Origin: Paracoccus sp. MC1862 | GTDB taxonomy: Bacteria > Pseudomonadota > Alphaproteobacteria > Rhodobacterales > Rhodobacteraceae | Length of the DNA stretch: 64,000 nt | Direction of reading: 5' to 3' | NCBI RefSeq assembly: GCF_016617715.1 | Contig: NZ_CP067225.1 | Span: 186,001 to 250,000 of the forward strand | Part shown: positions 9,756 through 36,506 of the stretch, in pieces | Numbering within the stretch: the stretch's first letter is position 1 | Layout of the letters: every line of letters starts with the position of its first letter | Translations under genes and position numbers: made by a program | Notes under the pieces: generated by a model | Seen by the model: the letters and a program-made list of their open reading frames with translations, nothing else | Told to the model about the DNA's origin: nothing | Databases searched by the model: none

Positions 9756-9794
9756 GCCATTTCAACAGCTTGCAGTGACCGAGAAGGAGAGGAC

Positions 9795-9808
9795 TGGAGC
9801 GGGTGAAG
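9795..9808. repeat. attL core of the tRNA-Gly island
   Basis: TGGAGCGGGTGAAG, identical to the 3' terminal 14 bases (CCA end included, reverse sense) of the tRNA-Gly gene at 36433-36446. Upstream similarity (GCCATTTCAA at 9756-9765, CTTGC at 9769-9773) keeps the same spacing as at the right end (36394-36403). After the core the match to the tRNA stops. Confidence 0.75.
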
Positions 9809-9870
9809 TGCTCCACGCTCCATCTGAACGCAAATCAGAACATTGATTTCTAACGGTATTTATTCTTGTC

Positions 9871-9904
9871 GTGCAGCATCTTGTGCAGCTAGATGTGCAG
9901 CAAA
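9871..9904. repeat. Left arm-type repeats of the island
   Basis: Three GTGCAGC units in 34 bases (GTGCAGCATC, TTGTGCAGCT, ATGTGCAGCAAA). The same design appears at 36323-36356 next to attR. Placement just inside both ends fits integrase or excisionase arm sites. Confidence 0.6.
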
Positions 9905-10012
9905 TTTGATCCCTCACGCATACCGGTGCAGTAGCTGAACTAAACCTCGCCAGAGCGTCAAGAGCTGGGTTCTCTGAATCGAGGAGCGGCCCCGCAGATC
10001 TGGAGATCTTCC

Positions 10013-10190
10013 ACGTGTTCAGTCCCGGCATCTGGTGGATCGGGTTGAGGATGAATCTGTCCGGCTCTGAAGTCCAGACCTTGCAGATGTATTCGTAGGG
10101 CGTGAGGCCGCTCAGCGTCTTGAGCCTGCGCGCGAAGTTGTAGGCTGCGATGGAGTCCGCGAGATGTGTGCGTAGCTGTTCGACGCGTCG
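10013..10190 (-). pseudogene. IS481-type transposase, C-terminal remnant
   Basis: Minus-strand translation gives about 58 residues matching the end of integrase-core (IS481-type) transposases: LADSIAAYNFARRLKTL, GLTPYEYICKVWTSEP, FILNPIHQMPGLNT. In the family the protein normally stops right after GLNT; here a tryptophan codon (TGG) follows, so the stop has been lost. The fragment is joined directly to an IS5-type transposase fragment upstream and has no start or catalytic region. Confidence 0.75.
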
Positions 10191-11054
10191 ATCCGGGCGA
10201 GTGGCGGTGGATCATGTCCAGTGCGGCACGGCGCTCGGCCTTGCCATCGGCCTGCGTCGGGTCCGTCTGCACGATCAGGCCACTGCGATTCTCCATCAGC
10301 ATGTGCCCCATGAAGCAGAGCATCGCGCCCGCGCCTGGCGACTTCTTGTAGAGCCGCGCCTCGGGGTCGGTGGTCGAGGCATGGGTGGCGTTCGAGCGCT
10401 TCTCGCCTCGGAAGTCGATCTTGGCATTGCGATCCTGGCGGGCGGGGCGGGCCATCGAGGTGGTCTCGATCTCGGGTTGCGGCTGGTCGGGGGCATATGC
10501 GGTGCGGCTGGAAGGCGGATCGCCCGGTCCGCTGCCCTCATCGCGCGGCGCGCCCCCGGCCTTCGGCTGGAAGCTCTTCATCGACGCCCAGGCCTTCACC
10601 AGGGTGCCGTCGACCGAGAAGTGCTCATCCGACAGCAGCGGCGCCACCTCGCGGTGGGCCAGGATCGTCGCCAGGAACTTGCGGGCGATATAGGTGGTTA
10701 GCAGCCGGTCGCGGTTCTTGAAAAACACTGTCGGAACCCAGACCGGATCGTTGATGCCGAGCCCGACGAACCACCGAAACAGCAGGTTGTAGTGCATCTG
10801 CTCCATGAGCTGCCGCTCGGAGCGGACCGAGAACAGGATCTGGAGCAGGCTCGCGCGCGAGCCAACCGCTCCGGCGCGATGGAGGGATGGCCCTCGACCG
10901 CATAGAGCCGGTCAAACTCGCCATCGAGACTGGTTAGCGCCTCGTTGACGATCCGCCGGATCTTGTGCAGCGGGTGCCGGGCGGGGATGCGCTCCTCAAC
11001 GTCGACATAGCTGAACAGCGATCCCGTCACCTTGTCCGTCCCGCGCATCCTCAC
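10190..11054 (-). pseudogene. IS5-type DDE transposase, frameshifted and 3'-truncated
   Basis: From 11054 the frame reads RMRGTDKVTGSLFSYVDVE, RHPLHKIRRIVNEALTSLD and HPSIAPERL, then loses frame near 10862. In the next frame it continues RASLLQILFSVRSERQL, MEQMHYNLLFRWFVGLG, SVDGTLVKAWASMKSF, DFRGEKRSNATHAS and LCFMGHMLMENRSGL. This is an IS4/IS5-superfamily transposase that includes the first catalytic Asp block. The remaining third (second Asp, Glu, WAKT region) is missing and is replaced near 10190 by the IS481-type tail. It cannot make active transposase. Confidence 0.85.
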
Positions 11055-11631
11055 CTCCGCAAACGCAGCAGTGAGGATGAATCATGTCCCGGAAACAGCG
11101 TCGAGGGTCGAGTTCTTCAGCAGCCTGCTAGAGGAGGATCGGGAAACAATTGGGGGAACGTTTCCCGGCCACGCCGAACATCATCTACGAGTTCAGCAAG
11201 CTGCCTCTATGGCTCTGCAGAGAGAGATTCTCCCGCTTGGGTTGCCTGGAGGCATATGAGGCAAGCCGAAGGTTCAGGAGCCAGAGGTGTCGAGGACAGC
11301 GTGCAGATCGATGCGCCCGATCCCCTTGAGGCTGCTGACGAAGAGCGTGCCGGCTGACAGGAGCGCGCTCCTGTGCTGAACTCGACAGCTACATCTGTTC
11401 GCTCTGCCTTGATCCGCGGGGCAAAGGCAGAGCGAATGCAAGGGCCAGACCAGCGTCAGCTTCCTGCACAAAGACGAAGCACTGGTTCTCTTCCCGAGGA
11501 ATCGCCGCAGCAGGAGCGAGTGGGTCGGTGGCCCTATGTCCGGGCGGATCAACGCGCCGAGGTCCAGACGCTGCAGTTTAGGACCGACGTCCGCCATTTC
11601 CAGCGATCTGGATCACCGGCGATATAGAGGT
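11055..11631. other. Intergenic stretch without a recognisable gene
   Basis: 577 bases between the IS remnant and the dehydrogenase stop codon. Short open frames exist on both strands (for example 11274-11597 minus) but none has a recognisable domain or a good ribosome site. The first 80 bases (around CAGCAGCCTGCTAG) probably belong to the end of the decayed IS. Confidence 0.4.
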
Positions 11632-14190
11632 TCAGCTTCGCGGCTTTTCATTATCGGGATCATAGAGCGCCTTGTATCCGACAGTGGCCACCTCGACCGG
11701 GAAAGTCTCGCCCATGTATTCCACCGCCAGCCTGCGGCACTCCCGGGCGTGGGAGCGGGGCAGGTAGGCAAGGGCGATGTTCCTGCCGATGGTCGGGCCA
11801 TAGGCGATGGAACTCGTCCAAGACCGCCGGCCAAGCTCATCGACCAGCGTCTCGCCGATGTCGGGGTCCAGCACCGGCAGGATTCCGACGGGATAGCGGG
11901 CAATCCCGTTGCCGTCGATGTTGTCGGTCATTACCAGCGTGCAGAGCATCGCCGGCTGGTGATCCCGCGCGGCATATTCGAGATGCTTTGCCTTGCCGCG
12001 GAAATCGGCCTCCTTGACCTTGGGCCGAGCCAGTCCCGCCTCGAACAGGTTGTATTCCGTCCGCAGGTCGGCGTTCTGCAGCCGCAGGCTTTTCTCCATC
12101 CGGCGCGAGTTGGCGTAGGTCTCGATCCCCACCGCGATGGCGCCGGTCGAGCGCAGGGCGTCCCAGACGGCCAGCCCGTCCTCGTAGGCCATGTGCAGTT
12201 CCCACCCCCGTTCCCCGACATAGGAGATGCGGAAAGCCGTGACCTCGCACCCCGCGATCCTGATCGGGCGGAGGGCGGCGAAGGGGAAGGCCTCGGGTTC
12301 CAGCGCGGCGGGGTCTTCCACCACCTTCTGCAGCTTCGCGCGGGCCTCGGGGCCCCAGAAGCCGATGGTGATGCGCTCCTCGGAGGCGTCGGTCAGGGTG
12401 ACGTCCAGCCCGCGATCCTGCGCCACGCGGCGCATACAGGTCAGGTCGCGCGGACCGGCATCTGCCCCGTTGACCAGCAGGCAGCGGTCGGCCAAGCGCA
12501 GCACGGTCAGGTCGGCGCGGATATTGCCCTGATCGTCAAGGAAATGGGTGTAGATGCCCTTGCCGATATTCGCGTCCCCCCCGATGCGGGCGGCGCAGAG
12601 CCATTCCAGCAGTGCGACATGATCCGGCCCCGAGATGTCGGTGATGTGGAAATGGGACAGGTTGATGATGCCGCAGCTTTCGCTCATCTCCAGATGCTCG
12701 GCGTTCGAGACGCGCCAGAAGTGGCGGTTGTCCCATTCATGCGCGCGGACGGGGACGCGGTCGCCGTATTTCTCCAGCAGATGCTCGTTCGCGGCATAGC
12801 CATGAGCGCGTTCCCAGCCGCCGAGTTCCATGAAATACCCGCCAAGCTCCACCTCGCGCTGGTGGAAGGGCGAGCGGCGGATGTCGCGCCCGCCCTCGAA
12901 CGGCTCGCGCGGGTGGACCGGCGGGGTGTAGATCGCCACCGCTGTCTGGGTGCAGCGGGCGGTGATGTAGTCCGCCTCAAGCTGGTGGGGGCTGAACCGG
13001 GCATAGTCGATGCTTGCGTGGTCGATATGGGTGCGGCCGTCGATGATCCAGTCGGCCAGCAGCTTGCCGATGGCGGGGGCGTCCTTGACCCAGACAGCGA
13101 CCGCATACCATAGCCCCCGCACCTTGCGGCTTTCCCCGACCGAGGGCATCGCGTCGGTCGTCGCCTGCAGCAGCCCGTTGAAGGAATGGCCCTCGTTATA
13201 GCCCAACTCACCCAGAACGGGCGTCAGTTCGATGGCGCGCTCCAAGGGCTCCATCAGGTCCTCGATGTCGAGGTCGCGCTGCGAGGGCGACAGCCGCGTG
13301 AACTCCTTTTCCAGGATCTCGCGCGGATGGCAGAGGCGGGGCGCGGCGTCGTAGTAGTAGCCCCATTCGATCTGCCCGCCCTCGGCGGTCGTGGGGTCGC
13401 CCGTGTCGCGCATGTAGGCCGAGTTGCCCTGGTCGCGCAGCAAGGGATAGCCGATGTCCTTGCCCGTGCCCTCGAACTGGTTGAAGGGGCCGAAGAAGGT
13501 CAGCGGGTGGTCCACCGGGAAGACCGGCAGGTCCTCGCCCGCCATCCCGGCGATGAGCCGCCCCCAGAGGCCGGCGCAGACGATCACCAGGTCGGCGCGG
13601 ATGGTGCCGCGCGGGGTGACGACGCCGCGGATGCGGCCGTCCTCGATCTCCAGCGCGGTCGCGGGGGTGTTGGCGAAGGCCCGCAGCCTGCCCGAGGCCA
13701 CGCCCTGATCGACCAGCTTGCCCGCCACCGTCTGCGAGCGGGGAACGACCAGCCCCGCATCAGGGTCCCACAAGGCCCCTTGGATCACGTCCTCCTCGAT
13801 CAGCGGAAAGCGTTCCTTGACCTCGGCGGGCGAGATCATCCGGGCGCGGGTGCCGAAGGCCTTGCCCGAGGCGACCTTGCGTTTTAGTTCATTCATGCGG
13901 GCGTCATCGCCCTTCCGCGCGACCTCGATCCCGCCGACCCGGGCGTAATGGCCGAGCCTTTCGTAGAAATCGGCGGAATAGAGCGACGTCCAGGTGCTCA
14001 GGAAATCATGGCTGGTGGTGAAGCAGAAGTCCGAGGCGTGGGCGGTCGAGCCGATGTCGGTCGGGATGCCCGACTTGTCGATGCCGACGATGTCGTCCCA
14101 GCCGCGCGCGATCAGGTGATGGGCGACGGATGCGCCGACGATGCCGCCAAGCCCGATGATGACGACCCTTGCCTGTTGGGGAAATGCCAT
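11632..14190 (-). CDS. Dimethylglycine/sarcosine dehydrogenase-type flavoprotein with GcvT-like folate domain
   Basis: An 852-residue two-part enzyme. Residues 1-400 form a DAAO-type FAD domain (VVIIGLGGIVGASVAHHLI; STAHASDF in the region where flavin attaches covalently in relatives). From about 430 it has the aminomethyltransferase-like domain (SCGIINLSHFHITDISGPD, VLRLADRCLLVNGADAG, YVGERGWELHMAYEDGL). The architecture is that of dimethylglycine and sarcosine dehydrogenases, which oxidise an N-methyl group and pass the C1 unit to tetrahydrofolate. It follows the flavoprotein at 14193 by two bases, so both form one operon. The exact substrate is inferred from neighbours. Confidence 0.85.
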   Translation of the reverse strand: MAFPQQARVVIIGLGGIVGASVAHHLIARGWDDIVGIDKSGIPTDIGSTAHASDFCFTTSHDFLSTWTSLYSADFYERLGHYARVGGIEVARKGDDARMNELKRKVASGKAFGTRARMISPAEVKERFPLIEEDVIQGALWDPDAGLVVPRSQTVAGKLVDQGVASGRLRAFANTPATALEIEDGRIRGVVTPRGTIRADLVIVCAGLWGRLIAGMAGEDLPVFPVDHPLTFFGPFNQFEGTGKDIGYPLLRDQGNSAYMRDTGDPTTAEGGQIEWGYYYDAAPRLCHPREILEKEFTRLSPSQRDLDIEDLMEPLERAIELTPVLGELGYNEGHSFNGLLQATTDAMPSVGESRKVRGLWYAVAVWVKDAPAIGKLLADWIIDGRTHIDHASIDYARFSPHQLEADYITARCTQTAVAIYTPPVHPREPFEGGRDIRRSPFHQREVELGGYFMELGGWERAHGYAANEHLLEKYGDRVPVRAHEWDNRHFWRVSNAEHLEMSESCGIINLSHFHITDISGPDHVALLEWLCAARIGGDANIGKGIYTHFLDDQGNIRADLTVLRLADRCLLVNGADAGPRDLTCMRRVAQDRGLDVTLTDASEERITIGFWGPEARAKLQKVVEDPAALEPEAFPFAALRPIRIAGCEVTAFRISYVGERGWELHMAYEDGLAVWDALRSTGAIAVGIETYANSRRMEKSLRLQNADLRTEYNLFEAGLARPKVKEADFRGKAKHLEYAARDHQPAMLCTLVMTDNIDGNGIARYPVGILPVLDPDIGETLVDELGRRSWTSSIAYGPTIGRNIALAYLPRSHARECRRLAVEYMGETFPVEVATVGYKALYDPDNEKPRS

Positions 14191-14192
14191 CC

Positions 14193-16229
14193 TCAGAGAT
14201 CCTTCACCAGGCGCAGCGCGTCATAGATCGCGGCATGGGTGTTTCGGGCGGAGACGGCGTCACCGATGCGGTAGAGCTGGAAGCCGCCCGAAGGATTGCG
14301 GGCGACCTGCTGTGGTCCCCCCGCGATCAGGGCGTCGTAATCGACCTCTCCCAGATTCGAGGACTGCGGCTTGAGGTCGAAATACAGCTCGTCCAGCGGC
14401 CGGGTGCCGTGGTTGACGACGACCTGATCCACGATCCGCTCGCGCCGGAAATCGCCGTAGTCGCTGCCCAGCGTGGCGCGCAGCATGTTGCCGTCGCGGC
14501 TCACCTGTTGCAGCCGCCAGGTGACGGTGAAGGTCGTCTTTCCCTTCTGCAAGGCGCGCATGTAGGGGACGAGGTTCATTGCCATGATCTCGGGCGAGAA
14601 GGTGCGGTCGGGGGTCACGACCTCGACCTCGGCGCCCGTTTCGACGATGGCCTGCGCGGCCTGCAGGGCGGCATGGTCGCCCGCGTCGTCGAAGACCAGC
14701 ACGTTCGCGCCGGGCTTCACGTCGCCCGACAGGATGTCCCAGGCCGAGACGACCAGTTCGTTGCCCTGCGCCAGAACCTCGGTATGGGGCAGCCCGCCCG
14801 TGGCGACGATCACGACATCCGGCGCGCTGTCCAGCACGTCTGCCGCATCCGCAAAGCTGTTGAAGCGGAAGGTCACGCCCAGCCGTTCGCATTCCGCCAT
14901 TCGCCACGAGACGATCTGTTCCATCTCGCGCCGCCGGGGCTGCAGCGCGGCCAGCCGAACCTGCCCGCCGGGCCGGTCGGCGGCCTCGAAGACAGTGACG
15001 GCATGGCCGCGCTCGGCCGCGACCCGCGCCGCCTCGAGCCCGGCAGGACCGGCGCCCACGACCGTCACCCGGCGCGGCTTCGGGCTGGGCGGGATCGTGT
15101 GGGGCATCGTTTCCTCGCGCCCCGAGGCGGGGTTGTGGATGCAGAGCGCGATGCCGCCTTGGTAGATGCGGTCGAGGCAATAGTTCGCGCCGACGCAGGG
15201 TCGGATGCGGTCCTCCTGTCCCGCCATCATCTTCCTGACGATATGCGGGTCGGCGATATGGGCGCGGGTCATGCCGACCATGTCCAGAAGGCCGCCGGCG
15301 ACCGCATGGCGGGCCGTGGCCACGTCCTGGATGCGGGCGGCGTGGAAGGTCGGCATCTGCGCCGAGGCCCGCATCTCCCCGGCGAATTCGAGATGCGGGG
15401 CGGACGGCATCCCCTGGATCGGGATCATGTCGGTCAGCGCCGCATCGGTGTCGATATGGCCGCGGATGATGTTCAGGAAATCGACCTGCCCGCTGCCCTT
15501 CAGGCGGTGGGCGATCTCGATCCCCTCGTCCTTGGTCACGCCATCCTGCATCTGCTCGTCGGTGACGACCCGCATTCCGACGATGAAATCTGGACCGACG
15601 CGCTTTCGCACCGCGTCCAGCACCTCGAAGGTAAAGCGCAGCCGGTTGTCGAGGCTGCCGCCATAGGGCGGGTCGAGATCGTTGATGCCGGGCGACCAGA
15701 ACTGCTGGAGCAACTGGCCGTAGGCCTGCAGCTCGATCCCGTCGACGCCCGCTTCCTTCATCCGTTCGGCCGCGTCCGCGAATTGGGCGGTGATGCGGGC
15801 GATGTCCCAGTCCTCAATCCGCTTGGGGAAGGCGCGATGCGCGGCCTCGCGTTCATGCGACGGTCCTACCACCGGCAGCCAGTCGCCCCGGTCCCAGCGG
15901 GTGCGGCGGCCCATGTGCGTGACCTGGATCATCACCGCGGCGCCGTGGTCATGGCATTCGTCCACAAGTCGCCGCATCCACGGCACGACCTCGTCCTTGT
16001 AAAGCAGCAGGTTCCCGAAGGCGGGGGGGCTGTCCGGCCCCACCACCGCCGAGCCCGCCGTCATCGTCAGCGCGACCCCGCCTTTCGCTCGCTCGACGTG
16101 ATAGGCGCGGTAGCGGTCCTTGGGCAGCCCGTCCTCGCCATAGGCCGGCTCGTGCGAGGTCAGCAGCAAGCGATTCTTCAGCGTCAGGTGCCTGAGGGTG
16201 AAGGGCTGAAGCAGCGGATCGTTAGACAT
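14193..16229 (-). CDS. NADH:flavin oxidoreductase, N-methylproline/dimethylglycine demethylase type (StcD/DgcA-like)
   Basis: A 678-residue enzyme of the old-yellow-enzyme/2,4-dienoyl-CoA reductase class. The N-terminal TIM barrel has LKNRLLLTSHEPAYGEDG, VMIQVTHMGRR and GIELQAYGQLLQQFWSPGIN. An iron-sulfur cluster region follows (RPCVGANYCLDR, ALCIHNPASGRE). The C-terminal half has a dinucleotide fold (VTVVGAGPAGLEAARVAAERG). Relatives demethylate N-methylproline (StcD) or dimethylglycine (DgcA). The start at 16229 gives SNDPLLQPFTLRHL, the expected beginning. It is divergent from a TetR gene with about 140 bases between. Confidence 0.85.
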   Translation of the reverse strand: MSNDPLLQPFTLRHLTLKNRLLLTSHEPAYGEDGLPKDRYRAYHVERAKGGVALTMTAGSAVVGPDSPPAFGNLLLYKDEVVPWMRRLVDECHDHGAAVMIQVTHMGRRTRWDRGDWLPVVGPSHEREAAHRAFPKRIEDWDIARITAQFADAAERMKEAGVDGIELQAYGQLLQQFWSPGINDLDPPYGGSLDNRLRFTFEVLDAVRKRVGPDFIVGMRVVTDEQMQDGVTKDEGIEIAHRLKGSGQVDFLNIIRGHIDTDAALTDMIPIQGMPSAPHLEFAGEMRASAQMPTFHAARIQDVATARHAVAGGLLDMVGMTRAHIADPHIVRKMMAGQEDRIRPCVGANYCLDRIYQGGIALCIHNPASGREETMPHTIPPSPKPRRVTVVGAGPAGLEAARVAAERGHAVTVFEAADRPGGQVRLAALQPRRREMEQIVSWRMAECERLGVTFRFNSFADAADVLDSAPDVVIVATGGLPHTEVLAQGNELVVSAWDILSGDVKPGANVLVFDDAGDHAALQAAQAIVETGAEVEVVTPDRTFSPEIMAMNLVPYMRALQKGKTTFTVTWRLQQVSRDGNMLRATLGSDYGDFRRERIVDQVVVNHGTRPLDELYFDLKPQSSNLGEVDYDALIAGGPQQVARNPSGGFQLYRIGDAVSARNTHAAIYDALRLVKDL

Positions 16230-16371
16230 GGCGCGCTCTCGGGAGGGATATCGACGGCAGAGTGGAAGCACTGTTCACACCTGTCAAGAAAATCGATCAT
16301 GCCGAACATTCGATGTTCGAGGCTGAACAATTTTCGTTGTCAGATAGCCATCCGACGCTATCATCCGATTC

Positions 16372-17049
16372 ATGGATGTGAGTTCGCCCCCCGCCAAGCG
16401 CCTGAAGGAACGCGGCTCGCGCGAGTTGTGGCTGGAAGCGGCCTACCAGGCGCTGATCGAGGGGGGCGTCGACAGCGTCCGCATCCAGGTGCTGTCCGAC
16501 CGGCTGAACCTGTCGCGCACCAGCTTCTACTGGTTCTTCCAAAGCCGCGAGGAATTGCTGGAAGCCCTGCTGGACCGATGGGAGCAGACCAACACCCGCG
16601 GCTTCGTCGCCGCTGCCGAAGCCTATGCCGAAACCCCGGCCGAGGCGGCGCTGAACCTGTTGGCCTGCTTTATCGTGGGTGAACAGTTCGATGCCGGCTT
16701 CGAGTTCGCCGTTCGCAGTTGGGCCTTGCAGTCCGACGACACCATGAGCCGCGTCAAGCGCGCCGACGAGACGAGGATGGAGGCGCTGCGCGTCATGCTG
16801 CGCGGCTTCGGCTATGAGGAGATCGACGCCGACGTGCGGGCGCGCACGATCTATCTGGTCCAGATCGGCTATATCTCGATGCAGACGCGCGAGACGGTCG
16901 CCACCCGGCTGACCCGCATCGCATCCTATGTCCGCATCTACACCGGCACCGAGGCCACCCCCAGCGAGATGGCCCGCTTCCTTGCGCCCTTCGGCTGTCG
17001 GCCCGACGGGGACGGGCAGCCGGTTCCTGTGAAACGCGGCGCCGGCTGA
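16372..17049 (+). CDS. TetR-family regulator
   Basis: A 225-residue protein with an N-terminal TetR DNA-binding domain: ALIEGGVDSVRIQVLSDRL, then LNLSRTSFYWFFQSREELL as the recognition helix. The C-terminal ligand domain is not family-specific. It lies between the divergent demethylase operon (16229, minus) and the betaine-type ABC transporter genes (17126, plus), so local control of both is likely but inferred. Confidence 0.88.
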   Translation: MDVSSPPAKRLKERGSRELWLEAAYQALIEGGVDSVRIQVLSDRLNLSRTSFYWFFQSREELLEALLDRWEQTNTRGFVAAAEAYAETPAEAALNLLACFIVGEQFDAGFEFAVRSWALQSDDTMSRVKRADETRMEALRVMLRGFGYEEIDADVRARTIYLVQIGYISMQTRETVATRLTRIASYVRIYTGTEATPSEMARFLAPFGCRPDGDGQPVPVKRGAG

Positions 17050-17125
17050 GGCCGGCCCCGCGCAGGCTGCTGGCGCCCCAGAGCCGCCTGCACGCCACCA
17101 CCAACGCTCTGGACGGGAGGAGAGA

Positions 17126-18124
17126 ATGCGGAAGATCCTGACCCTGGCAGCCTTCGGCGCCGCCTTGGCCGGCGCCCCTGCGCTGGCCCAGGAAGAATGC
17201 GGCGACCTGTCGCTGTCGAACATGAACTGGCAAAGCGCCGAGGTGCTGGCGGCGCTGGACCAGTTCATCCTGAACAACGGCTACGGCTGCAACGCCGAGA
17301 TCGTGGCGGGCGACACCGTGCCCTCGATCACCTCGCTGATCGAGCGCGGCCGCCCCGAGGTCGTCCCCGAGGCCTGGATCAACCTGCTGCCCGACCTGAC
17401 CGAGCAGGCGCGCGCCGACGGCAAGATCGTCTATGGCGCCAACGCGCTGAGCGACGGCGGCCAGCAGGGCTGGTTCATCCCGAAATACATCGCGGATGCC
17501 CACCCCGAGATCCTGACGATCCCGGAATTGCTGAAGCATCCTGATCTGTTCCCGGACCCCGAGAACCCTGACAAGGGGGCGATCTACAATGGGCAGGAAG
17601 GCTGGGGCGGCACCATCGTCACCACCCAGATGTTCAAGGCCTACGGCGCGGCGGACATGGGCTGGAACCTGCTGGACACCGGCTCGGCCGCCGGGCTGGA
17701 TGGCGCGATCGCCAGGGCCTATGAGAACCAGCAGCCCATCGTCGCCTTCTACTGGGAACCGACCGCGCTGCTGGGCAAGTATGAAATGGCCCGCCTGCAG
17801 CACGGCGTGCCGCTGGATGACGCGGAATGGGAACGCTGCAGTTCGAAAGCCGACTGCCCGGACCCCAAGCCCAACGACTGGAAGTCGGACGTGGTCTATA
17901 CCCTGATCGCCTCGGACTTCGCGGAACGTGCGCCGCAGGGGGTGATGGACTATCTCAACACCCGGTCCTGGTCGAACGACACGGTCAACAGGCTGATCGC
18001 CTGGATGACCGACAACCAGGCCACCGGCGAGGATGGCGCGCGCGAGTTCCTGCGCACCCAGCCCGAACTGTGGGAAGCCTGGGTGACGCCCGAGGCCGCC
18101 GAGAAGATCAGGGCGGCGCTCTGA
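17126..18124 (+). CDS. Glycine betaine/proline betaine-type ABC transporter, substrate-binding protein
   Basis: A 332-residue OpuAC-family periplasmic protein with a clear Sec signal peptide (KILTLAAFGAALAGAPALAQ, cleavage near 22). Features include DLSLSNMNWQSAEVLAALDQ, GDTVPSITSLIERG and aromatic residues (WINLLPDL, GWFIPKYI, AFYWEPTALLG) of the kind that cage quaternary ammonium ligands. GGAGG lies upstream of the ATG. A strong hairpin follows the stop, then the permease and ATPase genes. Glycine betaine, proline betaine, choline or DMSP are all plausible ligands. Confidence 0.9.
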   Translation: MRKILTLAAFGAALAGAPALAQEECGDLSLSNMNWQSAEVLAALDQFILNNGYGCNAEIVAGDTVPSITSLIERGRPEVVPEAWINLLPDLTEQARADGKIVYGANALSDGGQQGWFIPKYIADAHPEILTIPELLKHPDLFPDPENPDKGAIYNGQEGWGGTIVTTQMFKAYGAADMGWNLLDTGSAAGLDGAIARAYENQQPIVAFYWEPTALLGKYEMARLQHGVPLDDAEWERCSSKADCPDPKPNDWKSDVVYTLIASDFAERAPQGVMDYLNTRSWSNDTVNRLIAWMTDNQATGEDGAREFLRTQPELWEAWVTPEAAEKIRAAL

Positions 18125-18138
18125 CCGCCTGAGCCGGT

Positions 18139-18162
18139 GCCGCGGGCCGCTTTGCCCGCGGC
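18139..18162 (+). promoter_or_regulatory. Intercistronic stem-loop between binding protein and permease
   Basis: Perfect 9-bp stem GCCGCGGGC / GCCCGCGGC with a 6-base loop, 15 bases after the binding-protein stop and without a T-tract. In ABC operons such hairpins commonly raise the level of the binding-protein mRNA over the permease part. Confidence 0.7.
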
Positions 18163-18201
18163 CCATGTGATCCCATCCGCAAGCACCAGGGCAGGACCGC
18201 C

Positions 18202-19092
18202 ATGCCGGACTGGATGAACCGGTTTCCCCAGATGAACGAGGAAACCCTTCGCAACCTCAAGCGCGTCATCGACGACGCCTTCCGCGAGTTCACGCGCAGC
18301 TACGGCTCGGCGATCGAGGGCTTCTTCGATCCCCTGCGGCGGATGCTGATCTTTTCCGAACGCCTGATGCTGGGGATGCCCTGGCCGCTGGTGCTGCTGA
18401 TCGTGGGCGGGCTGGCGTGGCTGGGCAGCCGCAGCGTCCGGCTGACCGCCGCAAGCGTCCTGACGCTGGCCGCGATCGGCTATTTCGGGATGTGGGAAGA
18501 CACGATGCGGACGATCGCCATGATCCTTGTCTGCACGCTGATCGCCATCGCGGTCGGCATCCCGCTGGGCATCCTGATGGCGCGGTCGGGCCAGGCGCAG
18601 GCGTCCATGAACCCGCTGCTGGACGTGATGCAGACCATGCCCAGCTTCGTCTACCTGATCCCGGTCGTGATGCTTCTTGGCATCGGCCGCGTCGCCGGCA
18701 TGATCGCCGTTGTCGTCTATGCCCTGCCGCCCGTCGTGCGCCTGACGAACCTGGGCGTGCGGGAGGTGGACCGCGAGGTGATCGAGGCGGCGGACGCCTT
18801 CGGCTCGTCCGCATGGCAGAAGCTGTGGAATGTCCAGTTGCCGCTGGCGCTGCCGACGATCATGGCGGGCGTCAACCAGACCATCATGATGGCGCTGGCC
18901 ATGGTCGTCATCGCCTCGATGATCGGGGTGCAGGGGCTGGGCCAGCCGGTGCTGCGGGCGATTTCCAACCAGTATTTCACGCTGGGCGTTTTCAACGGCT
19001 TCGCCATCGTCGGCATCGCCTTCATCTTCGACCGCATCAGCCAGGCATTCGGCCGCCGCCTGCAGAAACACCGCGAGGGCGGGAATGTCTGA
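18202..19092 (+). CDS. Betaine-type ABC transporter, permease
   Basis: A 296-residue inner-membrane permease of the ProW/OpuAB class. Hydrophobic segments start near residue 52 (PWPLVLLIVGGLAWLG) and continue through IAMILVCTLIAIAVGIPLG, FVYLIPVVMLLGIGRVAG, and IIMMALAMVVIASMIG. The cytoplasmic EAA loop is VDREVIEAADAFGSSAWQKL, the contact to the ATPase. Its 3' end overlaps the ATPase gene by 8 bases. The long soluble N-terminus (about 45 residues) is usual for this family. Confidence 0.92.
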   Translation: MPDWMNRFPQMNEETLRNLKRVIDDAFREFTRSYGSAIEGFFDPLRRMLIFSERLMLGMPWPLVLLIVGGLAWLGSRSVRLTAASVLTLAAIGYFGMWEDTMRTIAMILVCTLIAIAVGIPLGILMARSGQAQASMNPLLDVMQTMPSFVYLIPVVMLLGIGRVAGMIAVVVYALPPVVRLTNLGVREVDREVIEAADAFGSSAWQKLWNVQLPLALPTIMAGVNQTIMMALAMVVIASMIGVQGLGQPVLRAISNQYFTLGVFNGFAIVGIAFIFDRISQAFGRRLQKHREGGNV

Positions 19093-20110
19093 GCCCACTG
19101 GGATCGAAATCCGCAATCTCTACAAGATTTTCGGCGCCCGCTCGCTGGATCATGTCGATGCCGTCCGCCGCGGCATGACCAAGACAGAGCTGAACGCGAG
19201 ACATCGCCATGTGCTGGGCCTGCGCGACATCAACATCTCGGTCCAGCCCGGCACGATCCAGGTCGTCATGGGCCTGTCCGGGTCCGGCAAATCCACCCTG
19301 ATCCGCCACATCAACCGCCTGATCGAACCCACGGCGGGCGAGATCGTGATCGACGGGCAGGACGTGGTGGCGATGACGCAGGCCGAGCTGCGCGCCTTTC
19401 GCCGCCACAAGACGGCCATGGTGTTCCAGAAATTCGCCCTGCTGCCGCATCGCACGGTGCTTGACAACGTGGCCTACGGGCTGGAAATCCAGGGCCTCCC
19501 CGAGGACCGCCGCCACCGCACCGCGAAGGGGTGGATCGAGCGGGTGGGGCTGGCCGGCTACGAGACACGCTATCCCAACCAGTTGTCAGGGGGCATGCAG
19601 CAGCGGGTGGGGCTGGCCCGGGCGCTGGCCAACGACGCGCCGATCCTGTTGATGGACGAGGCATATTCGGCGCTGGACCCGCTGATCCGCTATGACATGC
19701 AGACGGTTCTGCTGGACCTGCAGCAGGAGTTCCGCAAGACCATCATCTTCATCACCCACGACTTCGACGAGGCGCTGCGGATCGGCGACCGGATCGCGCT
19801 GCTGCGCGATGGCTCCATCATCCAGGAGGGCACGGGGCAGGAGATGGTGCTGCAGCCCGCCGACGACTATGTGTCGAGCTTCGTCCAGCACGTGGACCGC
19901 GCCAAGGTGGTGCAGGTCGCATCCGTCATGCAGCCGCTGACGGCCGAGGCGCAGGGGCCTGCCATCCCCGGCCGGGCCAACCTGGGCGAGGCGATCCGCA
20001 TGATGTCGGCGGAAGGCGTGGACCGGCTGACGGTGCTGGACCAGGCAGGCCGCGCCATCGGGCTGATGCCGATGACGCGGGCCGTGGAGGTTGCCGCCGG
20101 GGGCAGTTGA
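19085..20110 (+). CDS. Betaine-type ABC transporter, ATP-binding protein with CBS region
   Basis: A 341-residue ProV/OpuAA-type ATPase. Walker A is GLSGSGKSTLIRHI (about residue 62), the signature is LSGGMQQRVGLARAL, Walker B ILLMDEAYSALDPLI and the switch histidine is in IIFITHDFDEAL. The C-terminal segment (ANLGEAIRMMSAEGVDRLTV) is a single CBS-like unit, as in osmolyte importers. It completes the binding protein-permease-ATPase operon and ends against the reductase gene, with a bidirectional hairpin in between. Confidence 0.93.
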   Translation: MSEPTGIEIRNLYKIFGARSLDHVDAVRRGMTKTELNARHRHVLGLRDINISVQPGTIQVVMGLSGSGKSTLIRHINRLIEPTAGEIVIDGQDVVAMTQAELRAFRRHKTAMVFQKFALLPHRTVLDNVAYGLEIQGLPEDRRHRTAKGWIERVGLAGYETRYPNQLSGGMQQRVGLARALANDAPILLMDEAYSALDPLIRYDMQTVLLDLQQEFRKTIIFITHDFDEALRIGDRIALLRDGSIIQEGTGQEMVLQPADDYVSSFVQHVDRAKVVQVASVMQPLTAEAQGPAIPGRANLGEAIRMMSAEGVDRLTVLDQAGRAIGLMPMTRAVEVAAGGS

Positions 20111-20113
20111 GAA

Positions 20114-20142
20114 AACGGCCTGCCCGGAAAAGGCAGGCCGTT
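20114..20142. terminator. Bidirectional terminator hairpin
   Basis: An 11-bp perfect stem, AACGGCCTGCC / GGCAGGCCGTT, with a 7-base loop lies between the convergent ATPase (plus) and reductase (minus) genes. On the minus strand the stem is followed by TTCTC, giving a usable T-tract for that direction; the plus direction has only two Ts. Confidence 0.8.
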
Positions 20143-20185
20143 GCCGCATCCCGTGGAGAGAACCCGCCCATGACGGGCTGCCCTT

Positions 20186-25005: not shown

Positions 25006-25199
25006 AGCCGGATCGTTCGAGGCTGGAGTTCTCCGGCTGGAAGATGAGCGGAAGCGTGTCCTCCGGCCGCAGCGGACAGCATCCCGAACGGATCCTGCAA
25101 GGGTTCGGTGGCATTCCGCAGATTGATGCACACGCCCGATATGACCACCCATTGCGCCCGACCGGCTCTGACCCGGCATCCAGCTGGAGACTTGGCGTT

Positions 25200-25661
25200 C
25201 CTTCAACCTATGCGCCGCAGCCGCAAGGTCGTCGAGGCCTAAGCCCGCACTGGCCTCTCCGTGCGCGACCACCTCGTGGCCTTCCTGCGCGGGGACCTGC
25301 GCCGGCGCGGGATCATCCCCTGAACTGAGGCCATGAGCGTCCGCAACGGCCAGTGGCTCGAGACCGCCGGCATCGTCCTCGTCCGCCAGCGCCCGGGGGC
25401 TGCGAAGGGCGTCCTCTTCCTCACCCTCGAGGACGAGACCGGCATCGCCAATCTCGTGGTTTGGACGAAGGTCTTCGAGGCCCATCGCCGCATCTTCCTT
25501 GGCACCCCCTAATCGCCGTGACGGCCCGCGTCCAGCGCGAGGTCGTCCATCTGGTGGTCCACAAGATCACCGACCTGTCGCGGGAGCTGGAAAGCGTCAG
25601 TCTGCGCGAGAGAGGCACCGGGCCGGAAGGCAAAAGGCGTTGGACCGGGGCAGATCAGTGA
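25200..25661 (+). pseudogene. dnaE2: Error-prone DNA polymerase DnaE2, C-terminal remnant
   Basis: The plus strand encodes ARTGLSVRDHLVAFLRGDL, then SVRNGQWLETAGIVLVRQRP, GVLFLTLEDETGIANLVVW and KVFEAHRRIFL, the OB-fold end of ImuC/DnaE2. Three lesions are visible: TAA at 25240 where a Tyr is expected, TGA at 25321, and an extra base in a C-run near 25508 that shifts frame before TARVQREVVHLVVHKITDL. Only about 150 of more than 1000 residues remain. No imuA/imuB partner is present. It is a leftover of a larger translesion cassette. Confidence 0.85.
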
Positions 25662-26047
25662 GCCCCGCTTCGGATGTGGTTTCTTATGCAGGAACACGCG
25701 TTCGAGATATATATATATATATCCGCAACCTCCGTCTCGATACAACCGAGTTAAAACATGGGGCTTCAGGTGAATATGCGCAGAAACTCGCTCTGGTAGT
25801 AGAGTTGGGCAAAGAGGCCGTGCAAGGCCGGTCACTGCTTCTTGGACCCGCCAGCGAGCACCCAGCCGCTGAATGTCATGCAGGCCGCGAGCGTCGGTAG
25901 GCAGCTGCCAACGGCTACAAAGGCGATTGGCCACCAGTGGTCTGGCAGGCCCACGGTGCTGAAGTAATAAGCCGCAGTTGCCAGAAGCCCGGAGCCGACG
26001 ATCCAGAGCAATCGAAGGGTGGCCTTTCGCTGCAAGTATCGGCTTAG

Positions 26048-26840
26048 CACTACTCTGCCAGGTTTTGTGGTAGTTCGGGGTGGTGCTCACGGGAGGTGCC
26101 GTGATGAGAGCAACCACAAGCCACTGGCGGGCTGCCTATGAGGCTTGGCTCGCACCTTTCCTAGCTCGGCTCGGCAGGGTCGAGCAGCGCCGCTGGGCAC
26201 CGGTGTATCTTCAGGGGCTGCTCGGGCCGGGCGAGCGCAAGAGCGTCGAGCCAATGGCCGCTCGCGTAGCGCCCGGAGACGTTCAGCAGCTTCACCACTT
26301 CATCTCCACCTCGCCTTGGCGCTGTGAGCCGCTCGAGGAGGAGCTGGTGCGGGCCGCCGACCGGCTCGTCGGTGGTCCAGAGGCTGTGCTGATCATCGAC
26401 GACACCGCCCTGGTCAAGCAGGGGCGACACTCGGTGGGGGTTGCGCGCCAGTATTGCGGCCAACTGGGCAAAAAGGCCAACTGCCAGGCCTTGGTCTCGC
26501 TCACGCTGGCGCGCTGCGAGGTTCCGGTCTGTGTGGGCCTGCGTTTGTTCCTGCCTCGCGCCTGGGCCGAGGACGCAGGGCGGCGCGCCCGTGCCGGTGT
26601 GCCAGAGGCGATCCCCGGCCGGCCCAAATGGCGGATCGCCCTGGACGAGATCAGTCGCATCCAAGTGGCTGGAGCGCGCTTCGGCGCTGTGCTGGCGGAT
26701 GCCGAGTACGGCAAGGTGGCAGACTTCCGGCAGAAGCTCTCGGAGCAGGGTCTCACCTGGGCGGTGGGCATTCTGCCGACCCAGACGGTCTATCCTGCCG
26801 ACGTCATGATTGCTCCGGCTATGGAGGTGGCAGAGTAGTG
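26048..26840 (+). mobile_element. IS701-type element, internally deleted (793 bp)
   Basis: Terminal inverted repeats CACTACTCTGCCA at 26048 and its complement ending at 26840 enclose a shortened transposase gene. A 4-bp target duplication TTAG is at 26044-26047 and, after subtracting the later IS5-type insertion, at 27688-27691. The family is normally about 1.4 kb, so the 3' half of the transposase has been lost while both ends remain: a cargo-less derivative that could be moved only in trans. Confidence 0.85.
26104..26838 (+). CDS. IS701-family transposase, C-terminally truncated
   Basis: A 244-residue frame with the IS701 N-terminal block and DDE core start: HHFISTSPWRCEPLEEEL, VLIIDDTALVKQGRHSVGVA, QYCGQLGKKANCQALVSL, and GARFGAVLADAEYGKVADFR with the second catalytic Asp. 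It stops shortly after WAVGILPTQTVYPADV; the stop codon is inside the right inverted repeat. The C-terminal catalytic Glu region is missing, so it should be inactive. GGGAGGTG precedes the ATG. Confidence 0.85.
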   Translation: MRATTSHWRAAYEAWLAPFLARLGRVEQRRWAPVYLQGLLGPGERKSVEPMAARVAPGDVQQLHHFISTSPWRCEPLEEELVRAADRLVGGPEAVLIIDDTALVKQGRHSVGVARQYCGQLGKKANCQALVSLTLARCEVPVCVGLRLFLPRAWAEDAGRRARAGVPEAIPGRPKWRIALDEISRIQVAGARFGAVLADAEYGKVADFRQKLSEQGLTWAVGILPTQTVYPADVMIAPAMEVAE

Positions 26841-26843
26841 TTA

Positions 26844-27687
26844 GAGCGCCTAACAAAACCGCCTCTCGTGCGTTAGGGGACATGAGCAAGCCCCTTGTAT
26901 CCGATGATCTGTGGGCGGCGCTGGAGCCGTTGCTGCCGAGGCCGCGGCCCAAGCCCCAGGGCGGCCGTCCCCGCTGCGATGACCGGCTGGCCTTGGCCGG
27001 CATCCTCTTCGTGCTCCGCTCCGGCATCCCTTGGGAGATGTTGCCGCGCGAGTTCGGCTGCTCCGGCATGACCTGCTGGCGCCGGCTGCGGGACTGGCAA
27101 GCGGCCGGCATCTGGGCTGGGCTCCACCGCATGCTGCTGGAGCGCCTATCGGATGCCGGACATCTGGACTGGAGCCGGGCCTCCCTCGACAGCGCCGCCG
27201 TGGCGGCCAAAAGGGGGGCACCGAGATCGGCCCGAACCCGACGGATCGCGGCAAACCAGGCACGAAGCGCCATCTTGTGGTCGACCGGAGAGGCACCCCG
27301 CTCGGGGTGCGCCTGAGTCCAGCCAACCGGCATGACAGCCTGATGCTGGCGCCCACCCTCGATGCCGTGCCGGGCGTGCGCCACGGTCGCGGCCGCCCGC
27401 GCAAGCGCCCCGACAAGCTCCACGCCGACAAGGCTTACGATAACCATCGTTGCCGGTCCGAATGCCGCGCCCGCGCGATCATGCCCCGCATTGCTCGGCG
27501 GACAGTGGACAGCAGCGAGAGGTTGGGCTGCCACCGCTGGGTCGTCGAACGAACGCTTGCCTGGCTCAACCGCTTCCGCCGTCTGACTATCCGCTATGAG
27601 CGACGCGCCGACATTCACGAGGCCTTCGTAATCCTCGGCTGCGCCCTCATCTGCCTCAACCAGATCAGAAGGTTTTGTTAGATGCTC
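26844..27687 (+). mobile_element. IS5-family (IS427-type) insertion sequence, intact ends (844 bp)
   Basis: Inverted repeats GAGCGCCTAACAAAACC (left) and, complemented, GAGCATCTAACAAAACC (right) match 15 of 17. The target duplication TTA is at 26841-26843 and 27688-27690. The element sits directly against the right end of the IS701-type element, inside its target duplication, so it arrived second. Size and frameshift organisation fit the IS427 group. Confidence 0.9.
26882..27681 (+). CDS. IS427-type transposase made by -1 frameshifting (orfA-orfB)
   Basis: orfA (26882-27316) begins SKPLVSDDLWAALEPLLP and includes PWEMLPREFGCSGMTCWRRL. At 27209-27218 the run AAAAGGGGGG lies in frame 0 as AAA-AGG-GGG. 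Slipping back one base continues into GTEIGPNPTDRGKPGTKRHL, VDRRGTPLGVRLSPANRHDS, ADKAYD and the C-terminal RWVVERTLAWLNRFRRL, ending at 27681. This split with a slippery run is normal for the group, so the transposase may be functional. Confidence 0.88.
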
Positions 27688-27941
27688 TTAGTTCGACATC
27701 ACGTTCATATTCGGTCATAGGCGCTCCTCCTGCTTGCTGCCTTACTGCACCATCTTGACATGCCGTAGAGGCGACGATCGCCAGGAAAGATGCGGCCGTC
27801 AGTGGAGAGGCAGCAGGGCGCGGCAACGCCTGCCGGCAGACTCCCAGAGCTAATCAGTCAGGCCCCATGCATCAGCTGCACCAAGGGTAAGCCCTGCTGA
27901 CCGGATGTGCAGCAGGATTTTTACCCATGGATGCAGTCACA

Positions 27942-32943: not shown

Positions 32944-33765
32944 TCACACCTTTGCAGCGTAGTTCCACGGCAGGAGATCGTGGATCTGGCTCTGCTTATG
33001 TCCAGTGACGATGGCGGTGAGCGTTGCCGCCAACCAGGCGTGGGGATCAACGCTGTTGAGTTTGCAGGTTTCGATCAGCGAGGCGATGAGGGCCCAGTTT
33101 TCGGCTCCGGCGTCGTGCCCGGCAAAGAGAGCATTCTTCCGGTTCAGGGCGATCGGACGGATGGTGCGTTCGACGGCGTTGGAGTCCATCTCGACGCGAC
33201 CGTCGGTCAGAAAGCGCCTGAGACCGTCGCGGTATCTGGCAATATAGGCGAGCGCCTCGCCCAGTGGCGACTTTGCGGACGCGCGGGCGCGATGATGGCG
33301 CAGCCAGTCGTCAATGCGGGCGAGGATCGGGGCTGAACGGTCCTGCCGTGCGATCAGGCGGGCGGTGGTGGGGTCGCTGCCGCGAATGTCAGCCTCGATA
33401 CGATAGAGATCGCGGATGAGGTCGACGCCCTCCTCGGCGATCGGTGCGGGTCCGGTGCGGGTGATCTCGATGAGCTTTCGCGCGCGCGCAGCGATGGCCC
33501 GGACCCGCCGCCAGTCCAGCCCGGCAAACAGCGCCTCGAACTGGGCATGGCTCAGCGTCATCAGGCCGTCCTTCACCGCGGGCCAGCTGAAGCTGTGCTC
33601 CTCCAGCCGCTTGCAGGCCATCACCAGCCCGGTGCCGTCCCAGTAGAGCAGCTTCAGCCGATCGGCCTTGCGGGCCCGGAACACGAACACCGTCCCGGTG
33701 AACGGGTCCTTGCGCAATTCGTTCTTCACCAGCGCCGCCAGGCTGTCGTGGCCCTTGCGGAGCAA
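32944..33765 (-). pseudogene. IS66 TnpB-TnpC deletion fusion
   Basis: One open frame joins most of TnpB (KGHDSLAALVKNELRKDPF, FVFRARKADRLKLLYWDG, GLDWRRVRAIAARA) directly to the C-terminal third of TnpC (KLIEITRTGPAPIAEEGVD, KSPLGEALAYIARYRDGL, DGRVEMDSNAVERTIRPIA, ENWALIASLIETCKLNSVDP). The zinc finger and the first catalytic aspartates of TnpC are lost; the final catalytic Glu block remains. The normal TnpB start (IFPSHRVRIMVATKP, about 33850) is separated by about 40 inserted bases and is out of frame. Confidence 0.85.
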
Positions 33766-33850
33766 GCCATCAAGGCGCCATCGGTCCGAGCCCGATGGCG
33801 AGCGATGGGCTTTGTCGCCACCATGATCCGCACCCGGTGCGACGGGAAGA

Positions 33851-34234
33851 TCATGCCGGGGCCGTCAGCGCGCGCACGAGGGCCGCAAGCCGTTCGGCCG
33901 AGACGCCGGCCTCGAGGCGGATCGTCACCGCGCCGACCCTGATCTCCAGGCCGACGGCTTCGGAACAGCGCGGGCCTTCGTCGGAGGGCGCCACGATCAT
34001 GGCCGCGAACCCGACCGAACCCTCCGGCGCGGGCAGCACCAGCTGCCCCGCCCGGGCGCGCGAGCGCCACAACGACAGATGGTTGGCCTGCAGCCCGTGC
34101 CGTGCCGCGACCTCGTTCACCGTCACACCCGGGCGCAGCGTCTCCGCCACGATCCACGCTTTCACCTCATCCGGCCAAGTCCGCCGATGGCGACCGCCGC
34201 CATCGAGCGGGAGAACCTCCAGTGTAGCCGCCAT
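33851..34234 (-). CDS. tnpA: IS66 accessory protein TnpA
   Basis: A 127-residue protein with the IS66 TnpA helix-turn-helix: RRTWPDEVKAWIVAETLRPG and VTVNEVAARHGLQANHLSLW, followed by a C-terminal region (VGLEIRVGAVTIRLEAGVSA) usual for the family. It seems intact but serves a defective element. Confidence 0.88.
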   Translation of the reverse strand: MAATLEVLPLDGGGRHRRTWPDEVKAWIVAETLRPGVTVNEVAARHGLQANHLSLWRSRARAGQLVLPAPEGSVGFAAMIVAPSDEGPRCSEAVGLEIRVGAVTIRLEAGVSAERLAALVRALTAPA

Positions 34235-34670: not shown

Positions 34671-34988
34671 ATGGAGCGGAGCAACGAACCTCTCGTGGCT
34701 GCCTTTGCGGACACCCTTCGTCGTCGACGAGAAAAGGCCGGGTTGACGCAGGAGGATTTGGCCGAACGCTCCGACACCTCGGCACGCTTCATCTCATTCC
34801 TGGAAACCCGGCGCCGTCAGCCCTCCCTTTCGGCGCTTGCCGCTCTCAGCGAGGGGTTGGGCATCAGCATGGCCGACTTGGTTTCGGACGTAGAGGGCAA
34901 CTATCGCCCGCTACGGGACAGCCTGCCGGAAAACAGGTGTTCGGAGCCGGACACGGAAGGCAGGGAAGGCCTCCAGCAGCGCCGTTAA
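34671..34988 (+). CDS. XRE-family helix-turn-helix regulator
   Basis: A 105-residue protein with a Cro/CI-type HTH at residues 10-68: FADTLRRRREKAGLTQEDLA and FISFLETRRRQPSLSALAAL. The rest is polar and unrecognised. It starts 95 bases from the DUF262 pseudogene and is divergent from it, so it may have regulated that gene. It appears intact although the gene beside it is dead. Confidence 0.85.
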   Translation: MERSNEPLVAAFADTLRRRREKAGLTQEDLAERSDTSARFISFLETRRRQPSLSALAALSEGLGISMADLVSDVEGNYRPLRDSLPENRCSEPDTEGREGLQQRR

Positions 34989-35026
34989 GAGGCGCCTGCT
35001 CAGGATACATACCGCGGTCAGAGGGT

Positions 35027-36300
35027 TTACAAAGCGATAGCCTGAAGAAGTTGATGCACGTGCTCCAGCGAAGCGCCTGCCCCATAGCGCTCGCGATTCA
35101 GCCGATGTTCGAGCAGATCACGCCGAATCCGCTCGTCGATACCGGCAGCCAACATGCGATCCTCAAAGCTGTGGCGGAGAGAGTAGAGGACATGGCCTGG
35201 GCTTTCCTTGAGACCGTTCTCGGAGAGAAACTTGTTGATTGTCGCCGAAAGGCCCGGCTTGTTGCGGTAACGGCTGAATCCGTCCTTGCACTCGCGCATG
35301 GCTGCCAAGGAAACACCCACAAGCGGGATCTTTCGCTTCGAATAGAGGCTCTTTATGTGCCGGCCCTCTGGCAGGATTTCAATGAAGGGGACCTTCGCCG
35401 ACAGGTGAATATGCGCAGGCAGCAGTGCAGCCACTTCCGACGGCCTCGCACCCGTGTTGACCATCACACGAAGAATATTTCGCGCCTTGATGTTCAGACC
35501 ATCAAGTGCACCGGGAGCCAGCAGCTTGGTCTTTATCCACTCGTTGCTGAAAGGCGGGCGATTCTTCTGATCGGTCTTCTTGAGGGTAAGGACACCAAGA
35601 GGGAGGTTCAGCCCGAGCCGCTTGAGTTCGTTGACGGTGAACAGGATGCTCGACAGATGGCCGATTTCCTTGTTGGCCGAGTTCGTGCTGACTTCTCCGT
35701 CGCTGACGCGGTCGCTCCACCATTTTCGGAAGTCGAGCATGTGGTCGCGTGTGATCTGGTCGAGTGCCAAGTCATCGATTTGCTCAATGAAATTGGCCAC
35801 CGCCTTCTTCCGAGGATTGATCCAGATCCGCTTCTGATCGGCAGACATGCCATTTGTCTTGTCCTGAGTGAGGGCAAAGTAGAGCTCCAGAGCCCCCGAG
35901 ACCGTCAGTATGGGCTTCTCCGCCCCACCCAGGAACGCACGCGCAGCAACACTATCCGGCGCGTCCTCCGTGCCCCCATCATCTTGGTCCGAGCCACGAT
36001 CTCGCTGACCGTAAGGCGCGCAATGTCGCTTGCAGGCATGAACCGGAGGCCCGCAGCCTCAGCCAAGTGTCTTGCCGCCTCGTAGCGCTCTGCTACATTC
36101 TCCGACCGTCCTGCGAGCTTTGCTTCCCACGAGGCGATCAGTTGGTCTCGCACGAATGGCAACTTTCTCCGAGCCTCGGACTTGCTGTCGGTCTTCAGCG
36201 ATACTCAGACCACCTCTCGCTCTTCGACGTTAGAAAACCGCTTAGGCACCCGGACCCGAGTTGAAAACAGACCGTTCTTGCCCCGCGAGATCACCTTCAT
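35027..36300 (-). pseudogene. Tyrosine integrase of the island (nonsense plus frameshift)
   Basis: The start at 36300 gives KVISRGKNGLFSTRVRVPKR, a DUF6538-like integrase N-terminus. A TGA near 36205 replaces a Trp in REVV-W-VSLKTDSKSEA. A one-base change in a G-run near 35985 shifts frame before FLGGAEKPILTVSGALELYF. The remaining catalytic part is intact: VNTGARPSEVAALLP (Arg I), LYSLRHSFEDRMLAAGID (H-x-x-R-type box) and HRLNRERYGAG with the nucleophilic Tyr. It lies 130 bases from the tRNA-Gly 3' end, the usual position for a site-specific integrase. Confidence 0.88.
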
Positions 36301-36322
36301 GATCGCTCTCCCTCCAGTTCCC

Positions 36323-36356
36323 GTGCAGCACCTTGTGCAGCAACTTGTGCACCAAA
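36323..36356. repeat. Right arm-type repeats of the island
   Basis: GTGCAGCACC, TTGTGCAGCA, CTTGTGCACCAAA: the same spaced pattern as at 9871-9904, located between the integrase start and attR. Likely integrase arm-binding sites. Confidence 0.6.
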
Positions 36357-36432
36357 AGACGACCGCGGAACGCTCCAGATAGCTTGTGCATTAGCCATTT
36401 CAATGACTTGCGCGCGATGGAAGGAAGGAGAT

Positions 36433-36506
36433 TGGAGCGGGTGAAGGGAATCGAACCCTCGTCGTAAGCTTGGGAAGCTTCTGCTCTACCATTGAGCTAC
36501 ACCCGC
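36433..36506 (-). tRNA. tRNA-Gly (anticodon CCC)
   Basis: Read on the minus strand: GCGGGTGTAGCTCAATGG, anticodon loop TTCCCAA between AAGC/GCTT, T-arm GGGTTCGATTCCC, acceptor CACCCGC, then TCCA, so the CCA is encoded. The 3' 14 bases serve as the attR core of the island. The gene is complete, so integration restored it. Confidence 0.97.

Follow-up and report, generated by a model that had tools for sequence, protein, structure and literature searches.

Genomic islands that are inserted into tRNA genes by tyrosine integrases form a textbook class: the 3′ end of the tRNA gene provides the core, an integrase gene adjoins it, a direct repeat marks the far end and a relative has the empty site. 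In the genus Paracoccus, the passages of PMC3925955 that concern prophage phiPam-5 of Paracoccus aminophilus place it at tRNA-Gly. Here we describe an element with the same kind of target in Paracoccus sp. MC1862, which occupies positions 9795 to 36446 of the window, i.e. of the whole stretch of 64,000 nucleotides that was analysed (contig NZ_CP067225.1, positions 186,001 to 250,000), and which ends in a tRNA-Gly(CCC) gene. Whereas phiPam-5 is described there as a prophage, no phage structural domains were found among the window's open reading frames (ORFs) scanned with Pfam or NCBIfam, a search with PHROGs not having been made; nor did the frames so scanned include relaxase or type IV secretion genes, part of the island's ORFs having been left unscanned. 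The four textbook signs are all present, but the island differs from the textbook in that a recognisable backbone remains only at its ends (about 150 bp at the left, 1.8 kb at the right) and in that it is filled by a catabolic gene cluster which congeners hold elsewhere. The kind of element is already known; its filling is unusual. We propose, with a probability of roughly 0.6, that this is a dead tRNA-Gly(CCC) island filled by a clade-native catabolic cluster that was relocated by insertion sequences (IS).

The tRNA-Gly(CCC) island and its empty site

The genome under study (G000) has 3,633,757 bases; other G numbers denote the genomes compared with it. The element and its edges comprise the following features, the attachment site being abbreviated as att.

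8856..9755, plus strand: LysR regulator, the host gene at the left edge
9756..9794: putative host flank of the insertion site, 39 bp, outside the element
9795..9808: distal att core, an exact 14-bp copy of the tRNA 3′ end
9871..9901, plus strand: P′-arm repeats, three GTGCAGC starting at 9871, 9883 and 9895, 12 bp apart
35027..36302, minus strand: tyrosine integrase pseudogene with an in-frame TGA (36205-36207) and a frameshift (about 35974-35983)
36323..36353, plus strand: P-arm repeats GTGCAGC, GTGCAGC and GTGCACC, starting at 36323, 36335 and 36347 with 12-bp spacing
36394..36432: inner P arm of the element, with a likeness to the host flank 9756-9794
36433..36506, minus strand: tRNA-Gly(CCC), whose last 14 bp (36433-36446) are the proximal att core

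The recurrence of the 14-bp tRNA 3′ end at 9795-9808, noticed in a sequence-only reading of this DNA, could be confirmed: the core TGGAGCGGGTGAAG is present at 9795-9808 and at 36433-36446 and has no third exact copy in the 3.63 Mb genome. With at most one mismatch it matches the genome 7 times, versus 14 times for a reversed control pattern. The similar repeat clusters that the same reading had placed just inside both ends (9871, 36323) were also found, the distance from the core inwards to the triplet being 62 bp on the left and about 80 bp on the right, and within the window the repeat-pair pattern is confined to these two arms.

The gene abutting the tRNA is, as had been supposed, that of a dead integrase. 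Positions 35027-35848 match PF00589, and tblastn with an open homologue from G529 aligns to 36351-35983 and 35974-35030 in two different frames, which together with the TGA codon makes two lesions. Since the integrase is broken, the island would no longer be able to excise by means of it. The island may be "domesticated", as it had been labelled; the sign of use or selection that it shows is its open reading frames.

It had further been predicted that in a relative without the island LysR would be followed by tRNA-Gly. G521 has this arrangement on a single contig: the tRNA side (window 36430-46000) corresponds to C146:44403-53952 with about 93% identity and the LysR side (window 5592-9756) to C146:53988-58152 with about 91%; at the junction, 39 bp separate the LysR stop from TGGAGCGGGTGAAG and tRNA-Gly. 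One end of the stretch thus coincides with the 3′ end of an intact tRNA gene, the opposite boundary carries the exact 14-bp repeat, a member of a tRNA-targeting integrase family stands beside the tRNA, although as a pseudogene, and the site is empty in a relative. With the arms added, there is hardly any doubt that these 26.6 kb are a degenerate tRNA-Gly island integrated by a tyrosine integrase. That there is no island and that chance repeats lie at the breakpoint of a chromosomal rearrangement might be argued from the richness of the region in IS and from the fact that in none of 36 congeners do the two flanks match within 70 kb on one contig; such a breakpoint is contradicted by the G521 junction, as well as by the exactness of the cores, the presence of arms at either end and the position of the integrase next to the tRNA, and is very improbable.

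The neighbourhood of LysR and tRNA is itself derived. (The names puuD and TauE used here come from reading the proteins, no family search having been made.) In 18 of 29 LysR loci of congeners puuD faces the 3′ end of LysR, in G008 it lies on the other side and in 10 there is no puuD within 1.5 kb; in the larger LysR loci LysR faces puuD in seven of eight, the exception being G006. TauE is found on the 3′ side of the tRNA in 4 of 12 larger tRNA loci (G032, G007, G002, G027) and also in G498, near the tRNA on its other side in G013, and was not seen in the other 7. Both arrangements, LysR-puuD and tRNA-TauE, are present in five relatives (G032, G007, G002, G027 and G498), and LysR adjoining tRNA-Gly was seen only in G000 and G521. 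LysR directly followed by tRNA-Gly was considered as the ancestral state of the genus and rejected, because congeners show LysR-puuD and tRNA-TauE. In G000 both puuD (608.6 kb) and TauE (1516.6 kb) have IS-like sequence beside them, and the whole-genome core search found no exact att core at these endpoints of rearrangement. The fusion of LysR with the tRNA is common to G000 and G521 and, if G521 was never occupied, predates the island of G000.

The catabolic cluster and its history

The cluster consists of ten genes in 11632-24220, within a longer segment that congeners share.

11408..25610: segment common to congeners at other loci, 89.9% identical to G032 C49 over its full length
11632..14190, minus strand: dimethylglycine oxidase/dehydrogenase-like protein, 852 aa, best solved relative 1pj5
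14193..16271, minus strand: OYE/trimethylamine-dehydrogenase-like flavoenzyme, 692 aa, from family matches
16372..17049, plus strand: TetR-type regulator, from weak family matches
17126..20110, plus strand: importer of the betaine/dimethylsulfoniopropionate (DMSP) ABC type with binding protein, permease and ATPase, ProW/ProV-type
20186..22589, minus strand: Rieske N-demethylase (GbcA/Stc2-like) and reductase (GbcB-like), both under the curated GbcA/GbcB cut-offs
22651..23652, plus strand: GcvA-type LysR regulator, from a family match
23591..24220, plus strand: DMSP-lyase-like cupin, PF16867 with 187 bits and a weak DddQ match

The Rieske demethylase is near the solved structures 4qup and 3vca, the latter being that of a stachydrine demethylase, and the cluster presumably serves the uptake and demethylation of a betaine-like compound. 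The best solved relative of the binding protein is 7yle, a code that occurs once in the text of the paper on the DMSP importer DmpXWV (PMC10030565); the specificity of the window's protein is a prediction. At three Rhizobiales loci (L151, L163, L167) a DMSP-lyase-like cupin stands within a cluster of Rieske, OYE and importer genes; the cupin may therefore not act on DMSP at all. The neighbours of DMSP-lyase homologues at nine loci gave only paralogue-level matches (23-41%) to the cluster. Immediately after the cupin gene, 24229-25610 by eye resembles a remnant of the C-terminal end of an error-prone DNA polymerase (DnaE2/ImuC), which is also found beside the cluster in G032.

The sequence-only reading had implied that the betaine genes are the island's own cargo, which was not supported: four congeners, G521 among them, hold the cluster elsewhere with a divergence like that of core DNA. 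Among 124 other genomes of the genus, four (G521, G498, G032 and G013) have the Rieske gene, with 81-95% identity; in G498 and G032 the matched stretch contains one or two stop codons, yet there is an open frame of 438 aa. A further 14 genomes found in this search reach only 41-45%, and G000 itself has a single Rieske copy of the cluster type. Apart from G032 the shared segment is shorter, namely 11632-24991 in G498, 11651-23548 in G013 and 19304-24229 in G521, where the contig ends. The cluster sites of G521 and G498 have neighbouring genes in common, with about 11 kb extra between them in G498, and in both G032 and G013 the distance from the cluster to one and the same tRNA-Met is about 12 kb; in G032 C49 (L268, L270, L271) this tRNA is adjoined by a gene that by eye looks like a large serine recombinase.

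Identities to G000 for cluster and left flank, respectively, are 93.1 and 90.7% in G521, 90.3 and 90.6% in G498, 90.4 and 90.3% in G032, and 81.1 and 79.6% in G013. These levels fit vertical inheritance of the cluster, and the cluster tree joins G000 with G521 with a support of 1.0. Outside the genus the nearest Rieske homologues are from Rhizobiales with 69-74% identity (best 80 of 595 loci), and in Labrys okinawensis nine of the ten cluster genes are together; the clade may have acquired the cluster long ago. Horizontally acquired cargo is a usual, not a strictly defining, property of islands; here it has to be judged from a cluster that four congeners carry at core-like divergence and from trees that conflict.

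The cluster segment is bracketed by remnants of IS, which belong to the following other parts of the island.

10181..11132: decayed IS5-family insertion sequence, 85.8% identical to an IS5 of a Paracoccus yeei plasmid, NF033581 match
26045..27691: IS701-family element with a 99.5-99.7% copy elsewhere in the genome
27942..28673, minus strand: resolvase-domain protein, PF00239
29426..30758, minus strand: IS256-family element, from family and plasmid-record matches
32944..34234, minus strand: IS66-family and helix-turn-helix transposase fragments, from family matches
34671..34988, plus strand: helix-turn-helix regulator, PF01381

On the left are the IS5-type remnant and, by eye, a remnant of another transposase (9958-10180), on the right IS701, IS256 and IS66. 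Compared with plasmids, the right part gave mostly IS matches among the matches listed (best 15 of 190 records). Of the two IS701 copies (26045-27691 and L090:825-2470), one has a half that is inverted relative to the other copy, around an overlap of 16 bp.

We picture the events as follows. The integrase would have recombined attP, the site of the element, with the 14-bp tRNA end, whereby the tRNA was rebuilt on one side and a copy of the core left 39 bp past the LysR stop. Later, IS elements would have eroded the backbone and the integrase died, and an IS-driven rearrangement would have moved the clade-native catabolic cluster between the att cores. In favour of relocation is that the shared cluster DNA ends near IS remnants in the window. 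Since G000 has a single Rieske copy and the cluster stands between such remnants, relocation is at least as likely as import, and on all the evidence we consider it likelier than the arrival of the cluster as fresh cargo.

According to the latter explanation, the cluster would be cargo that the island brought in from a different species of the clade, and the native copy would have been lost. The cluster lies entirely between the att cores, its different loci in relatives speak for a cluster that moves readily, the trees of cluster and left flank conflict with good support, and the nearest homologues listed outside the genus, with the nearly complete set in L. okinawensis, would also suit an import. 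Yet the divergence of the cluster equals that of the flanking core DNA, its firm grouping is with G521, and the integrase backbone is a thin shell separated from the cluster by IS remnants, all of which make import rather unlikely.

Several points nevertheless weigh against relocation. G013 is paired with G498 in the cluster tree (0.999) but with G032 in the flank tree (0.994), and the latter leaves the placement of G000 open (0.258); because of this conflict, either the cluster or the left flank, if not both, has probably been subject to exchange between species. A search for the former neighbourhood of the cluster, which covered 280 kb of chromosome in 14 stretches, six pieces of plasmid contigs and four earlier stretches, did not find it; the largest match was a single one of 1,166 bp with 75.6% identity. 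Relocation within one lineage was not directly seen. A sister species could instead have been the source of both island and cluster, with loss of the native copy, and the empty site of G521 may reflect loss of the island rather than its original absence.

Relatives of the integrase

Integrase relatives are present in 56 of 394 genomes of the family (E ≤ 1e-40) and, within the genus, in 22 of 125 (E ≤ 1e-50), G000 being included in both counts. Beside them, ARAGORN called a tRNA at 19 of 29 family loci outside G000 (15 tRNA-Ser, 4 tRNA-Arg, 10 without) and at 15 of 22 such loci in the genus (9 Ser, 4 Gly, 2 Ala, 7 without). The sequence-only reading had expected that a search with integrase and arm pattern would return other islands at the same tRNA, and relatives of the integrase do stand at tRNA-Gly in four genomes. 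In G033 it is the orthologous tRNA-Gly(CCC), next to the orthologue of 36547-36981, that has a 45% identical integrase; in G025 the relative stands at another gene, which was called as tRNA-Gly(CCC) but has no 14-mer at its end; G529, with an open and 73% identical integrase, and G465 have theirs at tRNA-Gly(TCC). The arm triplet is shared only by G529, the holder of the closest integrase, which is also the only one of the 22 genus loci with GTGCAGC triplets; among the 29 family loci there are three. Most relatives of the integrase are without the triplet.

An element in G314 with a 62% identical integrase is built in the same manner, with one core at both ends about 25 kb apart and GTGCAGC triplets, 12 bp apart, inside: a 16-bp core at C2:172363 is followed by the triplet, and the identical core at C2:197701 is preceded by one. 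It differs in that the core by eye resembles the end of a tRNA-Ser, no tRNA having been called in the G314 stretches, in that the integrase frame is open, and in that a second integrase-like ORF, seen by eye, follows the core.

Another integrase of this family, with an open frame, adjoins tRNA-Ser(GGA) elsewhere in G000 (G000:C1:1107484-1108296, L090); next to it is a gene that by eye resembles a primase/DUF3987 protein. This integrase probably marks a second island.

The 39-bp stretches beside the cores

GCCATTTCAA begins at 9756 and at 36394, in each case 39 bases before the respective core. The positions given in the sequence-only reading were correct; their interpretation as an att sign, and as an independent sign of the island's ends, was not, because the left 39 bp correspond to the 39 bp of the empty site in G521. 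The two agree at 30 of 39 positions, which argues that the left stretch is host DNA of the insertion site.

After a simple integration the two 39-mers are expected to be unrelated. Those of the window agree at 22 of 39 positions, a likeness above chance that 11 of 200,000 shuffles reach, and the right 39-mer, which is the element's own, agrees equally well (22 of 39) with the G521 flank. Sites for IHF are expected in the integrase arms of such elements; both 39-mers of the window contain an IHF-like TTTCAA-N4-TTG.

A possible explanation, to which we give somewhat less than an even chance, is serial occupation: the host flank seen in G521 would be the P-arm scar of an earlier element with an integrase of the same family. 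Both the left 39 bp of the window and those of G521 are similar to the window's P arm (z = 6.9 and 4.6; 0 and 1 of 300 shuffles) and also to that of the G314 element (z = 4.7 and 4.6; 0 of 300 each), and across 6.9 million strand-bases, from loci that partly overlap, the motif TTCAA-N(2-4)-CYTGC is matched only 60 times. None of the other 21 tRNA-Gly flanks shares more than 16 of 39 positions with the right 39-mer, and the elements of G465 and G314 have own pairs that agree at only 9 of 39 each. Tandem arrays, as far as can be judged by eye, occur in this integrase family in G314 and G073. Against serial occupation stands that the left 39-mer is similar to G013's host flank as well (z = 4.5; 0 of 300), for which the G521 flank gives only 2.1 (16 of 300), and that there is no match with the P arms of G529, G073 or G082; that the left junction is the plain middle of a tandem is weakened by the G521 junction. 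As a statement about the site, serial occupation would agree with relocation of the cluster as well as with its import.

The seeming tandems in G314 (L140:5363 to L135:10701) and G073 (L137/L094) have different integrases and tRNA-Ser-like cores, and would be good material for working out the attP structure of the family. For the window, one may go further and see in the dead island a landing pad for a native cluster that changes its place from species to species and keeps a core-like divergence, and in the 39-bp flank the scar left by an earlier element, again of this integrase family, which contributed to the fusion of LysR with tRNA-Gly; this is doubtful. What the locus does warn of is that sequence shared outside the att core need not be an att sign, and that all the standard signs of a genomic island can be true and the cargo yet may not be foreign: the boundaries tell of insertion, the history of the cluster must be read from the sister species.

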